The translations under genes were made by a program, and so were the position numbers. Of a stretch of 64,000 nt of DNA, positions 59,249 to 63,444 are shown piece by piece (position 1 is the first letter of the stretch; every line of letters starts with the position of its first letter). This DNA comes from Bacteroidia bacterium (GTDB taxonomy: Bacteria > Bacteroidota > Bacteroidia > M30B66): positions 1 to 64,000 of the forward strand of contig JAGYKL010000012.1 of the NCBI GenBank assembly GCA_018401705.1. Reading direction: 5' to 3'. A model generated the notes under the pieces. It ran no database searches. It was not told the DNA's origin and saw nothing but the letters and a program-made list of their open reading frames with translations.

Positions 59249-59264
59249 TTTAGGCTAGTCTAAA
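59249..59264. promoter_or_regulatory. DtxR/MntR-type operator of the metal uptake operon
   Basis: TTTAGGCTAGTCTAAA is palindromic except for one position pair (TTTAGACTAGCCTAAA on the other strand). It matches the DtxR-family consensus (TTAGGxTAGxCTAA class) and the TTTAGGCTAGCCTAAA boxes known for manganese regulators. It lies just upstream of the -7 box at 59292, where a bound repressor would block the polymerase. Confidence 0.72.
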
Positions 59265-59291
59265 AAAATATTTAGAATTGTATAAATGCTA

Positions 59292-59299
59292 TATCTTTG
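59292..59299 (+). promoter_or_regulatory. Bacteroidota -7 box of the metal uptake operon
   Basis: TATCTTTG matches TAnnTTTG exactly. The ATG at 59304 follows after four bases, so the transcript is probably leaderless. No TTG lies at the ideal spacing upstream; the DtxR-like operator ends 27 bases upstream. Confidence 0.6.
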
Positions 59300-59303
59300 C
59301 AGA

Positions 59304-60227
59304 ATGAAACGCATATATCTAAATGTAATCTCAGTATTTATTTTAGCAGTTTTCTTGACTTCCTGTGAAGAATCGGTCTCTTCATCAAGCAAGAAGCCTA
59401 TCGTGTTAACAACGACGGGAATGATAGGCGACATGGCTAAAAATCTTCTTGGAGACATTGCTGAAGTCAAAACAATGATGGGGCCAGGTGTTGATCCTCA
59501 TTTATACAAAGCCTCGCAGGGGGATATGCAGTTAATTTCTGATGCTGACATTATCGTTTACAACGGATTACATCTAGAGGGGAAATTGGTTGAAATATTT
59601 GAGAAGACAGCTAAATCGAAACCTACTATTGCATTAGGTGATTTCATTCCATCAGAAGATATTATGAAATCAGAAAATACAGGCGAAGCACCTGATCCAC
59701 ATATTTGGATGAATCCTAAGATTTGGAAAAAAGCTACAATTGGATTAACTGATACACTTAAGAGTTTATTTTCTAAAGAAAAAGGAAGCATTCAAAATGC
59801 ATGTAATTCATATTCAGAACAACTTACAGAATTAGACAATATGGTTGATAGCCTTGTTAATCTCATTCCAGAGAAAGGTCGTGTATTAATTACCTCTCAT
59901 GATGCATTTAGGTATTTTGGTAAAGAATATGGTTTGGAAGTTAAGGGTTTACAGGGTATCTCAACAGTGTCTGAATATGGTTTGCGAGATGTAAAGAATA
60001 TGGTAGACTTAATTAACTCTAGAGAAATTAAGGCTGTTTTTGTTGAAAGTTCGGTTTCTTCTAAGTCTCTGGAGTCTGTTGTTCAGGGTTGCAGAGATAA
60101 AGGCCATCTTGTAAATATTGGCGGAACCTTATTTTCTGATTCTATGGGAGATCCTAAAAGTTCTGAGGGTAGTTATTTAGGTATGATTCGTCACAATGCT
60201 ACAGTAATATCAAATTCATTAAGATGA
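59304..60227 (+). CDS. Metal-binding lipoprotein of an ABC uptake system (TroA/MntA-like)
   Basis: 307 residues from ATG 59304 (the in-frame ATG at 59286 lies upstream of the -7 box and is not used). Lipobox VFLTSCEES. The cluster A-I substrate-binding fold has the ligand set His66 (GVDPHLYKAS), His133 (PDPHIWMNP), His199 (LITSHDAFRYFG) and Asp279 (FSDSMG). The His-rich loop of ZnuA is absent, which favours manganese or iron over zinc. The mature protein captures the ion and hands it to the permeases encoded downstream. The stop overlaps the ATPase gene start by 4 bases. Likely repressed through the operator upstream when metal is plentiful. Confidence 0.88.
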   Translation: MKRIYLNVISVFILAVFLTSCEESVSSSSKKPIVLTTTGMIGDMAKNLLGDIAEVKTMMGPGVDPHLYKASQGDMQLISDADIIVYNGLHLEGKLVEIFEKTAKSKPTIALGDFIPSEDIMKSENTGEAPDPHIWMNPKIWKKATIGLTDTLKSLFSKEKGSIQNACNSYSEQLTELDNMVDSLVNLIPEKGRVLITSHDAFRYFGKEYGLEVKGLQGISTVSEYGLRDVKNMVDLINSREIKAVFVESSVSSKSLESVVQGCRDKGHLVNIGGTLFSDSMGDPKSSEGSYLGMIRHNATVISNSLR

Positions 60228-61009
60228 AGGAAGTGAAATCTAGCTCGGTTGAAGTGCACAATTTAACTGTTATCTATCATAGAAAGCCAGTGTTGTGGAA
60301 TATTGATTTTCAGTTGCCTGAAGGCAAGTTGATTGGTATAATGGGGCCTAATGGTGCTGGGAAATCAACTTTGATGAAAGCTATACTTGGACTCGTTCCC
60401 TTGAATTCTGGCTATGCGAAAATCTATGACCAAGATTTAAAAGATGTAAGAAGTAGGGTAAGTTACATTCCTCAAAGACAAACCGTTGATTGGGATTTCC
60501 CGGCAACTGTTAAGGATGTTGTGATGATGGGCCGCTATCAGCATAGAGGTTTATTTGGAAGGATTACAGCAAAGGATAAAGAAATAGTTGATGAAGCATT
60601 AGAGCAAGTTGCTATGCAATCATTTAAGAACAGGCAAATTGCTCAATTGTCGGGAGGCCAGCAGCAGCGTGTTTTTCTTGCTAGGGCTTTAGCTCAGCAA
60701 GCCGATTTGTATTTGCTTGATGAACCATTTGTTGGAGTAGACGCTTCTACAGAAGAGTCAATAGTATCAATGTTAAGATCATTGAGAGATCAGGGCAAAA
60801 CTTTAATTGTGGTTCACCATGATTTGCATACAGCTCGTGATTATTTTGATTGGATTGTGTTGCTCAATGCCTCATTAATAGGTGTTGGACCTTTGGATGA
60901 GATTTTTACTGATGAGAAATTGAGAACCACTTACAGTGGGAAGTTAACAGTTCTATCTCAGGTTGGAGATCGTTTGAGAGAAAAAAATTTCCCAGTTAGG
61001 GAAAAATAG
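60224..61009 (+). CDS. Metal ABC transporter ATPase
   Basis: 261 residues, cytoplasmic. Walker A GIMGPNGAGKSTLMKA (39-54), Q-loop YIPQRQTVDWDFP (81-93), signature QLSGGQQQRVFLARA (141-155), Walker B LYLLDEPFVGVD (162-173) and H-loop VVHHDLHTA (196-204). The VDWDFPATVKDVVMMGRY stretch is characteristic of the Mn/Zn/Fe chelate-type (MntA/ZnuC) ATPases. It drives both permeases encoded next. Two bases separate its stop from the fused permease start. Confidence 0.92.
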   Translation: MKEVKSSSVEVHNLTVIYHRKPVLWNIDFQLPEGKLIGIMGPNGAGKSTLMKAILGLVPLNSGYAKIYDQDLKDVRSRVSYIPQRQTVDWDFPATVKDVVMMGRYQHRGLFGRITAKDKEIVDEALEQVAMQSFKNRQIAQLSGGQQQRVFLARALAQQADLYLLDEPFVGVDASTEESIVSMLRSLRDQGKTLIVVHHDLHTARDYFDWIVLLNASLIGVGPLDEIFTDEKLRTTYSGKLTVLSQVGDRLREKNFPVREK

Positions 61010-61011
61010 AC

Positions 61012-62307
61012 ATGGGCTGGATTAGTGATTTTTTGCTTTTAAATGATCCAACTCTAAGAGTTGTTGTTCCTGGCGTTTTATTGCTTTGTGGAATGTCTGC
61101 TGCAGTTGGTTGTTTTACCTTCCTTAGAAAGAAATCGCTTATTGGGGACGCGGTTTCTCATAGTGTTTTACCTGGAATTTGCATTGCATTTATTCTAAAT
61201 GGAGAAAAGAACATATTTTACTTTTTGCTCGGAGCAATGATTTCAGGACTAGCAAGTGTGCTCATCATTGATTATCTAACCAAAAGCAGATTTGCTAGGA
61301 ATGATACTGCTATAGCACTTATGCTTTCCGTGTTTTTTGGATTAGGTATCGTCCTGCTAACTTATATACAACACCAAGGCAATGCTTCTCAAGCAGGTTT
61401 AGATAGCTTCTTATTTGGTAAAGCTGCATCACTGAACAAAGATGATTTAATGATTTTTGGAATATCGAGTTTATTGATTTTTTTACTCATTGCTTTTTTA
61501 CTTAGAGGTTTTTCCCTCGTGTCATTTGACGATAGCTTTGCTATGTCGATTGGTTTTCCGGTTGTTTGGTTAAAATCTTTACTTTCGGTTTTAACAGTTT
61601 GGTCTATTGCCACAGGCATTCAGGCGGTTGGTGTAGTCCTCATGGCTGCTCTCTTAATTGCTCCTGCTTTAGCTGCCAGAATGTGGACCAATTCAATTAT
61701 TAAAATGCTTCTTTTAGCAGGCATTTTTGGTATGCTTTCGGGGTATTCGGGAGCCTTCGTATCATACGCTCTTCCCCAAATGCCAACCGGTCCTTGGATA
61801 GTTGTTATGGCAAGTGTGATTGCTTTTGGTTCCTTGTTATTAGCTCCGAGAAAAGGTTTGTTCTCTCAGATTATAGAACGTAATAACAATGAAAAGAAAA
61901 TCCTCCAGGAAAACATCTTGAAAATATTCTACCATATAGATGAGAAAAGCGGGGAAACTCAAAAAGCCGTTTTGCAGGAGGATTTGTTGAATCAGCGTTC
62001 ATTTTCAAACCGCAATATGCGCAAAGGTTTGAGAATATTGGAGCGAAAGAACTACTTGTCAAATCATTTAGGAGCTTGGTCATTAACAAGCTCAGGCAGA
62101 GTTGAAGCAAAACGAATAGTGAGATTACATCGTTTGTGGGAGTTATATCTACAAGAGTATCTTCATTTAGATCCTGATCATGTGCATGATGATGCAGAGG
62201 CAATGGAGCATGTAATTACTCCTGAGATTGAAGCTCAATTAGATGTATTGTTGGGGAATCCAACTATTGACCCACATCAAACCCAAATACCTTCCAAAGA
62301 TGAATAG
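61012..62307 (+). CDS. Metal ABC permease fused to a DtxR/MntR-like sensor domain
   Basis: 431 residues. Residues 1-285 are an ABC-3 permease with about eight membrane helices (FLRKKSLIGDAVSHSVLPGI, QAVGVVLMAALLIAPALAAR, typical ZnuB/MntB motifs). Residues about 297-366 form a winged helix: RSFSNRNMRKGLRILERKNY (recognition helix) and GAWSLTSSGR (wing). Residues 367-431 are the dimerisation and metal-binding part: RLHRLWELYL (His373, Glu377), HVHDDAEAMEHVITPEIE (Glu396, Glu399, His400), matching MntR/DtxR ligands. The Asp8/Glu11 equivalents are unclear. The sensor faces the cytosol, so the protein may feel intracellular Mn or Fe and close the channel, and could also bind the operator at 59249. 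No separate DtxR gene lies nearby. Confidence 0.88.
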   Translation: MGWISDFLLLNDPTLRVVVPGVLLLCGMSAAVGCFTFLRKKSLIGDAVSHSVLPGICIAFILNGEKNIFYFLLGAMISGLASVLIIDYLTKSRFARNDTAIALMLSVFFGLGIVLLTYIQHQGNASQAGLDSFLFGKAASLNKDDLMIFGISSLLIFLLIAFLLRGFSLVSFDDSFAMSIGFPVVWLKSLLSVLTVWSIATGIQAVGVVLMAALLIAPALAARMWTNSIIKMLLLAGIFGMLSGYSGAFVSYALPQMPTGPWIVVMASVIAFGSLLLAPRKGLFSQIIERNNNEKKILQENILKIFYHIDEKSGETQKAVLQEDLLNQRSFSNRNMRKGLRILERKNYLSNHLGAWSLTSSGRVEAKRIVRLHRLWELYLQEYLHLDPDHVHDDAEAMEHVITPEIEAQLDVLLGNPTIDPHQTQIPSKDE

Positions 62308-63145
62308 TAATGACCTTTGGATAGTTTTTACCGCAATCGCAGTGGCATTAATTTGCGCTCTACCGGGATGCTTTTTGGTTTTACGACGTATGGCAATGGT
62401 TGGAGATGCTATTTCTCATGCGGTGCTTCCAGGTATTGTAATAGCTTACCTGCTCTCAGGAAGCAGAAATACCATGTATATTTTACCCGGTGCTGCCGCC
62501 GCAGGAATGCTCGTTACAGTGTTAATTGAATGGTTGCAGAAAAGATTAAGGGTTCAAAGTGATGCTTCAATAGGTTTGGTTTATACACTGCTTTTTGCAA
62601 TTGGAGTTATTCTGGTTACAGCTTTTACTGCTCAAACCGACCTTGATCAGGAGTGTGTTTTATATGGTGAAATTGCCTATGTGCCATTTGATATGATGAG
62701 CATCGTTGATGGAGGTTTTTCCGCACCCAGACAACTTTGGATAGCCAGCGGATTATTGACAGTGTTAATAATTGTAATTACATTAGGCTACAGAGGCTTG
62801 TATCTCAGCACATTTGACCCTGGATATGCCACAGCAATTGGTATTTCAGTAGTTTTTTGGCATTACATTCTAATGAGCATGGTTTCTTTAGCGGCAGTTG
62901 TGTCATTTGAATCAGTTGGGGCAGTTTTGGTAGTTGCATTACTAACTGGACCTCCAGCTATTGCTTCACTATTTGCCAAACGTTTGCCGTTAATGCTGCT
63001 GCTGGCTTGTGTATTTGGTGTTTTGGCCTGTGTTTTTGGTTACTTGATAGCGAGTTTCTTAAACGCATCAATATCAGGAAGTATCGCAGTTGTTATTGGC
63101 GTGCTTTACGCGTTTAGCTTAGTGATTAAGAAAATTTTCTTTTAA
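62300..63145 (+). CDS. Second metal ABC permease (ABC-3 family)
   Basis: 281 residues from ATG 62300, which overlaps the end of the fused permease gene (stop at 62307) by 8 bases. About eight helices: CFLVLRRMAMVGDAISHAVLPG (residues about 25-46), AFTAQTDLDQECVLYGEIAY loop, FEsVGAVLVVALLTGPPAIA-type motif near 215-235 and a final helix GVLYAFSLVIKKIF. It lacks any extra domain and so pairs with the fused permease to make a heterodimeric channel, as in MntB/MntC-type systems with two permease genes. Confidence 0.9.
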   Translation: MNSNDLWIVFTAIAVALICALPGCFLVLRRMAMVGDAISHAVLPGIVIAYLLSGSRNTMYILPGAAAAGMLVTVLIEWLQKRLRVQSDASIGLVYTLLFAIGVILVTAFTAQTDLDQECVLYGEIAYVPFDMMSIVDGGFSAPRQLWIASGLLTVLIIVITLGYRGLYLSTFDPGYATAIGISVVFWHYILMSMVSLAAVVSFESVGAVLVVALLTGPPAIASLFAKRLPLMLLLACVFGVLACVFGYLIASFLNASISGSIAVVIGVLYAFSLVIKKIFF

Positions 63146-63146
63146 T

Positions 63147-63371
63147 CTATTTGCACTCACCTTGCTTGAATTTTACAATTCCTTTGCATTTCGCCGCGCA
63201 TGCATTTGGGTAGGTTTTTCCATTGCAACCACAAACAGGATCATAATCCATGGGGCAAATACAATCAACTTTAGCTTTCTTTTCTACACATCTTTTTCCT
63301 GAACAAGCACAAATAAACATCAAAACCATAAATGATAGGATAATGTAGAGAATTGATTTTTGTAAATTCAT
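63147..63371 (-). CDS. Kazal-type protease-inhibitor-like lipoprotein
   Basis: 74 residues when started at ATG 63371 (MNLQKSILYIILSFMVLMFI, lipobox FICACSGKR). The C-terminal 40 residues are a Kazal-like fold: CICPMDYDPVCGCNGKTYPN, ACAAKCKGIVKFKQGEC, with six cysteines plus the signature CGCNGKTY. Kazal domains inhibit serine proteases. A bacterial lipoprotein form would be anchored in the envelope, and could guard the cell against proteases. An earlier in-frame ATG (63431) exists but gives no leader. It is convergent with the metal operon, one base apart. Confidence 0.82.
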   Translation of the reverse strand: MNLQKSILYIILSFMVLMFICACSGKRCVEKKAKVDCICPMDYDPVCGCNGKTYPNACAAKCKGIVKFKQGECK

Positions 63372-63444
63372 TTTTAAAGGTAATAAAATTAAAAGCCTCA
63401 TCTGTTGGATTAATGGTAAATTGCGAATCATTTAAAACCATCAC

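Follow-up and report, generated by a model that had tools for sequence, protein, structure and literature searches.

An ABC-3 permease carrying a DtxR-type domain in Bacteroidota: conserved metal ligands, a drifting DNA-reading half and a possible role in metal sensing

An importer operon with a fused permease

The window, which is the whole 64,000-nucleotide stretch of a Bacteroidia bacterium contig (JAGYKL010000012.1) analyzed here, contains an operon encoding, in this order, a substrate-binding protein (SBP), an ABC ATPase, an ABC-3 permease extended by a DtxR-type domain and a second, plain permease (Table 1). Family matches suggest that this operon encodes an Mn/Fe-type ABC importer, whose metal would be either Mn or Fe. 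The best NCBIfam match of the ATPase, NF011630, is the model for manganese/iron ABC transporter ATP-binding proteins, and the score lies below the equivalog cut-off of that model. The true start of the substrate-binding lipoprotein may be the ATG at 59304. Directly after the operon, a small secreted-looking protein containing a Kazal-type inhibitor domain is encoded on the reverse strand (63147-63431).

Table 1. Features of the importer operon and of its promoter region, in window coordinates.
Feature	Position	Strand	Details
Palindrome TTTAGGCTAGTCTAAA, DtxR/MntR-type putative operator	59249..59264	.	exact TTTAGRCTAGYCTAAA once in genome
Second, imperfect copy TTTAGAATTGTATAAA	59271..59286	.	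22 bp downstream of first
Substrate-binding lipoprotein, ZnuA/TroA type	59286..60227	+	PF01297, E 5e-71
ABC ATPase, Mn/Fe type	60224..61009	+	best NCBIfam NF011630, E 6e-73
Permease::DtxR fusion	61012..62307	+	431 aa; AlphaFold2 mean pLDDT 94, pTM 0.87
ABC-3 permease part	61054..61839	+	residues 15-276; PF00950, E 1e-62
Single helix 283-313	61858..61950	+	AlphaFold2 helix, block pLDDT about 88-96; carries Asn301
Winged helix	61906..62085	+	residues 299-358; recognition helix 331-343 = FSNRNMRKGLRIL
Metal-binding/dimerisation domain	62086..62292	+	residues 359-427; PF02742, E 1e-24
Second, plain ABC-3 permease	62300..63145	+	281 aa; PF00950, E 7e-51

The permease::DtxR fusion is real and belongs to a known kind. 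Eleven relatives carry it, with an intact open frame in 10 of the 11, and a genome scan returned at least one fusion at 68 of 80 loci among the matches listed, which rules out a frame error as the origin of the fused ORF. An internal start yielding a free domain was also rejected: the nearest in-frame ATG, GTG or TTG upstream of helix 1 is a TTG at residue 283, a residue that is unconserved in the relatives. The permease part is complete, as originally predicted, and the plain permease said to follow it is indeed present. The former resembles PsaBC (7kyp, Foldseek TM score of 0.9 by target), and its residues D46 and H50 are invariant.

The DtxR-type portion spans residues 299-427. AlphaFold2 gives a full winged helix followed by the metal-binding/dimerisation domain (pLDDT of 91.6), for which the top PDB match is the Mn repressor DR2539 (E 2e-9), IdeR, DtxR and SloR matching as well; a FeoA/SH3-like third domain is absent from the fused protein. 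In the AlphaFold2 model built on 59 fused homologues (mean pLDDT 94), helix 283-313 starts just past the last transmembrane helix and becomes helix 1 of the winged helix, with no disordered or low-confidence linker between the two parts. Pfam searches of the fused protein recovered the permease family and Fe_dep_repr_C (PF02742), and gave no match to Fe_dep_repress (PF01325) even at E<1, whereas the latter profile matches the standalone MntR of the same genome (E 3e-16). Hence, of the complete DtxR-type winged helix and metal domain announced by the original prediction, the fold is upheld and the DNA-reading sequence is not. The architecture, a permease::DtxR within an SBP-ATPase-fusion-permease operon, is of the YtgCR type, and a conserved N-terminal DNA-reading helix is lacking.

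Conserved metal sites and a drifting DNA-reading half

The ligand set of the fused domain comprises H373, E377, H392, E396, E399 and H400. We take His373, Glu377 and His392 to be the DtxR ancillary site (H79, E83 and H98), and Glu396, Glu399 and His400 the primary site (C102, E105 and H106); Asn301 presumably occupies the position of DtxR M10 and MntR D8. The set is fuller than the four residues first reported (His373, Glu396, Glu399 and His400), as Glu377 and His392 complete the ancillary site. Those four residues are present, but not in the MntR spacing attributed to them: positions 373 and 396 are 23 residues apart, which we take to be the spacing of DtxR (79-102) and not that of MntR (22, 77-99). 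H373, E377, E399 and H400 occur in all 72 fused domains and H392 in 69 of them, and position 396 is Glu in 64 and Asp in 8. Glu in the place of Cys102 is common to the fused domain and to standalone Bacteroidota MntRs and, by analogy with the MntR and DtxR studies that underlie the distinction between Glu and Cys102, suggests Mn rather than Fe. Beside the metal site, His390 (DHVH) is a class-specific residue, found in 68 of 72 fused domains where most standalone proteins have Glu.

The DNA-reading half behaves differently. We compared seven fused and seven standalone proteins of the window's family, five genomes being represented in both sets. All seven standalone MntRs have the recognition helix TKASSVTDM(I/V)KKL, whereas the fused proteins have FSNRNMRKGLRIL, FSNRQLRRGLRLL, FDPSQLSKGLKIL, FGHDELRKGLKRL, FATEELQSGLKKL, FAPQALRRGLRTL and FNLQTLRTGLKRL. 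Identity over this helix is 48% in the fused versus 98% in the standalone proteins; at the DNA-contact positions, presumably the equivalents of DtxR S37, P39, T40, S42 and Q43, it falls to 19% versus 100%, and over the metal half it is 87% versus 81%. Across 39 loci with both kinds of protein, identity of the helix-turn-helix (HTH) is 0.22 for fused versus 0.44 for standalone domains, and that of the metal half 0.58 versus 0.65. In 12 pairs of close species, for which dN alone was compared because dS was saturated in most pairs, dN is 0.284 for the fused HTH, 0.070 for the fused metal half, 0.097 for the permease and 0.077 for the standalone HTH, the fused HTH exceeding the standalone one in 12 of 12 pairs. 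The hydrophobic core of the fused recognition helix (L336/M, L340 and L343) is mostly kept, so that the fold persists and the reading face does not. At some loci the fused winged helix is partly missing (L015 and L014) or partly deleted with the metal site kept and a canonical mntR adjoining (G036); in two further genomes (G258 and G274), in neither of which other PF02742 proteins were found, the metal site is kept and the recognition helix is unrecognisable. Altogether, these comparisons suggest that the metal ligands are under purifying selection and that the DNA-reading face is unselected. Rapid drift of the HTH part is what one would expect of a functionless relic of a past repressor fusion, yet we consider this explanation highly implausible given that the metal half is on average more constrained than the permease itself and that the fusion persists in many phyla.

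The promoter palindrome and its probable reader

The DtxR-like palindrome originally reported at the operon promoter is real, and its specific form has no other zero-mismatch copy in 3.74 Mb; counterparts precede the operon at three other loci (L064, L163 and L164). The bare pattern TTTAGRNNNNYCTAAA is not enriched genome-wide (5 occurrences versus 8 for the control); a genome-wide regulon drawn from it was therefore rejected, and only position and conservation were used as evidence. The exact form TTTAGRnnnnYCTAAA occurs in 19 copies at 18 of 48 Bacteroidota and Balneolota fusion loci, where 0.3 are expected, immediately preceding mntR, the SBP gene or a fabH-like gene that lies ahead of mntR (Pontibacter). 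This fabH-like gene, behind an MntR-type palindrome and ahead of both mntR and the importer operon, was seen around positions 80-390 at seven Pontibacter loci (L067, L073, L080, L083, L085, L087 and L113). Around standalone mntR genes we counted 25 exact copies at 20 of 47 loci, where about 0 are expected; these often separate mntR from a divergent gene of TonB-receptor-like or Nramp-like type, and several of the palindrome loci (L018, L019, L024 and L027-L031) belong to genomes where the search found no fusion. A TonB-dependent receptor gene of the window's genome (G000:C13:28045, L148) is preceded by the same palindrome with its second copy at 22-bp spacing. That receptor is likely the outer-membrane partner of the importer, within one regulon.

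The window's genome has a standalone MntR whose recognition helix is invariant in its family; standalone DtxR/MntR proteins are also encoded at 38 fusion loci, often heading the operon, and 18 of 20 Bacteroidota genomes with a full-length fusion have another PF02742 protein. Because this type of palindrome lies beside standalone mntR, also where there is no fusion, and before the TonB receptor gene, the site is best assigned to the standalone protein: the palindrome at 59249 is most likely a putative MntR operator. The fused domain in Bacteroidota is thus probably not the repressor of its operon, and we disfavour autorepression at 59249, which the original prediction had offered in the form of a membrane-bound repressor, given the drift of the fused HTH and the association of this operator type with standalone mntR.

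Repression could take two forms. The C-terminal domain could be cut off the permease and, once soluble, repress its own operon in a metal-dependent manner; this is reported for YtgC/YtgR of Chlamydia, where the gene order is the same, and the intact ligands and the operator-like palindrome at the promoter would fit such a scheme. We nevertheless regard it as improbable here, since the DNA-contact positions are unconserved even within the family and the Fe_dep_repress match is absent, the same operator type occurs in genomes without a fusion, MntR is also encoded as a standalone protein, frequently within the same operon, and the predicted structure has a continuous helix 283-313 in place of a disordered linker. 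Alternatively, the uncut domain could bind the operator from the membrane, a possibility raised for full-length YtgC in a review (PMC5599777) and compatible with the completeness of the fold. Facing the same unconserved contacts, fusion-free operators, resident MntR and missing disordered linker, a tethered repressor seems to us very improbable.

Distribution of the fusions and a possible metal sensor

Fusions occur in at least Bacteroidota, Balneolota, Verrucomicrobiota, Omnitrophota, Latescibacterota, Sumerlaeota, Planctomycetota and Myxococcota in our genome scan, and full-length ones in about 20 of the 247 Bacteroidota genomes sampled, including that of the window. Fused and standalone domains fall on opposite sides of one branch (SH-aLRT of 96) in a tree of few columns and long branches. 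This well-supported branch argues against recent local captures, and a recent local fusion of a resident MntR was rejected on the same basis. In Omnitrophota, Latescibacterota and Planctomycetota loci (L108, L115 and L119), both permeases carry the domain, and in one Bacteroidota locus (L166:2358-4121) an apparently single 588-aa ORF for SBP and ATPase is followed by a single permease::DtxR; these arrangements are what a pair of domains within one transporter would need. Winged-helix-like tails without the metal half are found on both subunits of the ABC-3 permease pairs of L171-L173, indicating that sensing is not universal, and the metal half of a Brevibacillus permease (L114) is degenerate and lacks the ligands. 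In four Feo operons (L170:4520-8456, L174, L175 and L176), a canonical standalone MntR is followed by a DtxR protein fused to two FeoA-like domains and by a FeoB encoded as separate G-domain and membrane parts. The DtxR proteins of L170, L175 and L176 have an N-terminal transmembrane helix resembling the last one of the permease, and may represent another type of transporter whose DtxR domain is anchored in the membrane.

We lean toward the view that the fused domain is a cytosolic metal sensor of the importer, transcription being left to the standalone MntR. The DtxR-fold tail would have kept both metal sites and lost selection for sequence-specific DNA reading. Metal binding would alter the angle at which the metal/dimerisation half meets the winged helix; helix 1 of the latter, continuing rigidly from the last transmembrane helix, would pass this change to the permease, so that plentiful cytosolic metal would damp transport (trans-inhibition) and the separate MntR would control transcription through the 59249 palindrome. 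Both the coupling to transport and the sign of the effect are inferred. Of the two functions originally proposed, gating of uptake thus fits the selected ligands, the rigid helical link and the unselected reading face, though gating itself is deduced, and repression of its own operon does not fare as well. Several observations sit less easily with a sensor: DtxR domains usually dimerise, whereas the window's transporter, presumably a heterodimer, has a single copy; the tails of several lineages are winged helices that lack the metal half; in Chlamydia the homologue does bind DNA as a repressor (PMC5599777); and unconserved contacts are still compatible with non-specific or rapidly re-tuned DNA binding. 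The domain could instead be a structural, assembly or metal-exit part that, with no feedback, accepts incoming metal at the cytosolic mouth or stabilises the permease. The winged-helix-only tails on both permeases imply that a tail can serve without a metal half, and the ligand-free Brevibacillus permease and the class-specific His390 point the same way; the complete, strongly constrained two-site ligand set nonetheless looks like a sensor and not a passive tail, and we hold this role to be unlikely, if credible.

For the fusions outside Chlamydia as a whole, we give an even chance to an old importer class with a sensor built into its transmembrane subunit, derived from a repressor that gave up DNA reading, and exerting feedback on transport, not on transcription. 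If the sensor interpretation is true, a repurposed transcription-factor domain provides direct allosteric control of Mn/Fe import. In the open-access literature searched, we found no treatment of a DtxR domain as a transport regulator. The fusion itself was known; what is new is the evidence that the Bacteroidota fused domain probably does not repress its operon. Chlamydia, the only studied member found, led to the suggestion of a self-releasing repressor for fusions across 11 phyla, and the Bacteroidota evidence points the opposite way.

The closest known system is YtgC-YtgR of Chlamydia trachomatis (CT069, YtgCR), and its existence makes the original statement that no mechanism study was known wrong: it was studied in Akers 2011 and Thompson 2012, as summarised in PMC5599777, and in PMC7755916. 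Like the window's protein, it joins an ABC-3 permease to a C-terminal DtxR domain, lies in an operon (ytgABCD) with the order SBP, ATPase, fusion and plain permease, and, by published description, keeps the metal-coordinating residues (PMC5599777, PMC7755916). In contrast to the window's protein, the Chlamydia domain is released by cleavage and reportedly acts as an Fe-dependent repressor (PMC5599777, PMC7755916), whereas here there is a separate MntR with an invariant recognition helix, and the DNA-reading helix of the fused domain is unconserved. Orthologous permease-DtxR fusions are reported in 11 phyla (PMC5599777), and transport by YtgC itself is left open in PMC7755916. Standalone MntR, DtxR, IdeR, SloR and Deinococcus DR2539 share the fold and metal ligands of the fused domain, which differs in being joined to a membrane permease, in lacking the FeoA/SH3-like third domain and the Fe_dep_repress match, and in the drift of its DNA-contact positions. 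The TroABCD, PsaBCA and MntABCD importers share the permease fold (PsaBC, 7kyp) and the SBP and ATPase families, but no such tail extends the permease chains of PsaBC, which are about 260-290 residues long. MetNI and ModBC are trans-inhibited importers with a cytosolic ligand-sensing domain on the ATPase. PMC10710835 cites trans-inhibition for a molybdate/tungstate ABC transporter. The window's importer would resemble MetNI and ModBC in having a cytosolic ligand-sensing domain built in, inhibition being proposed by analogy, and differs from them in that this domain sits on the permease and not on the ATPase.
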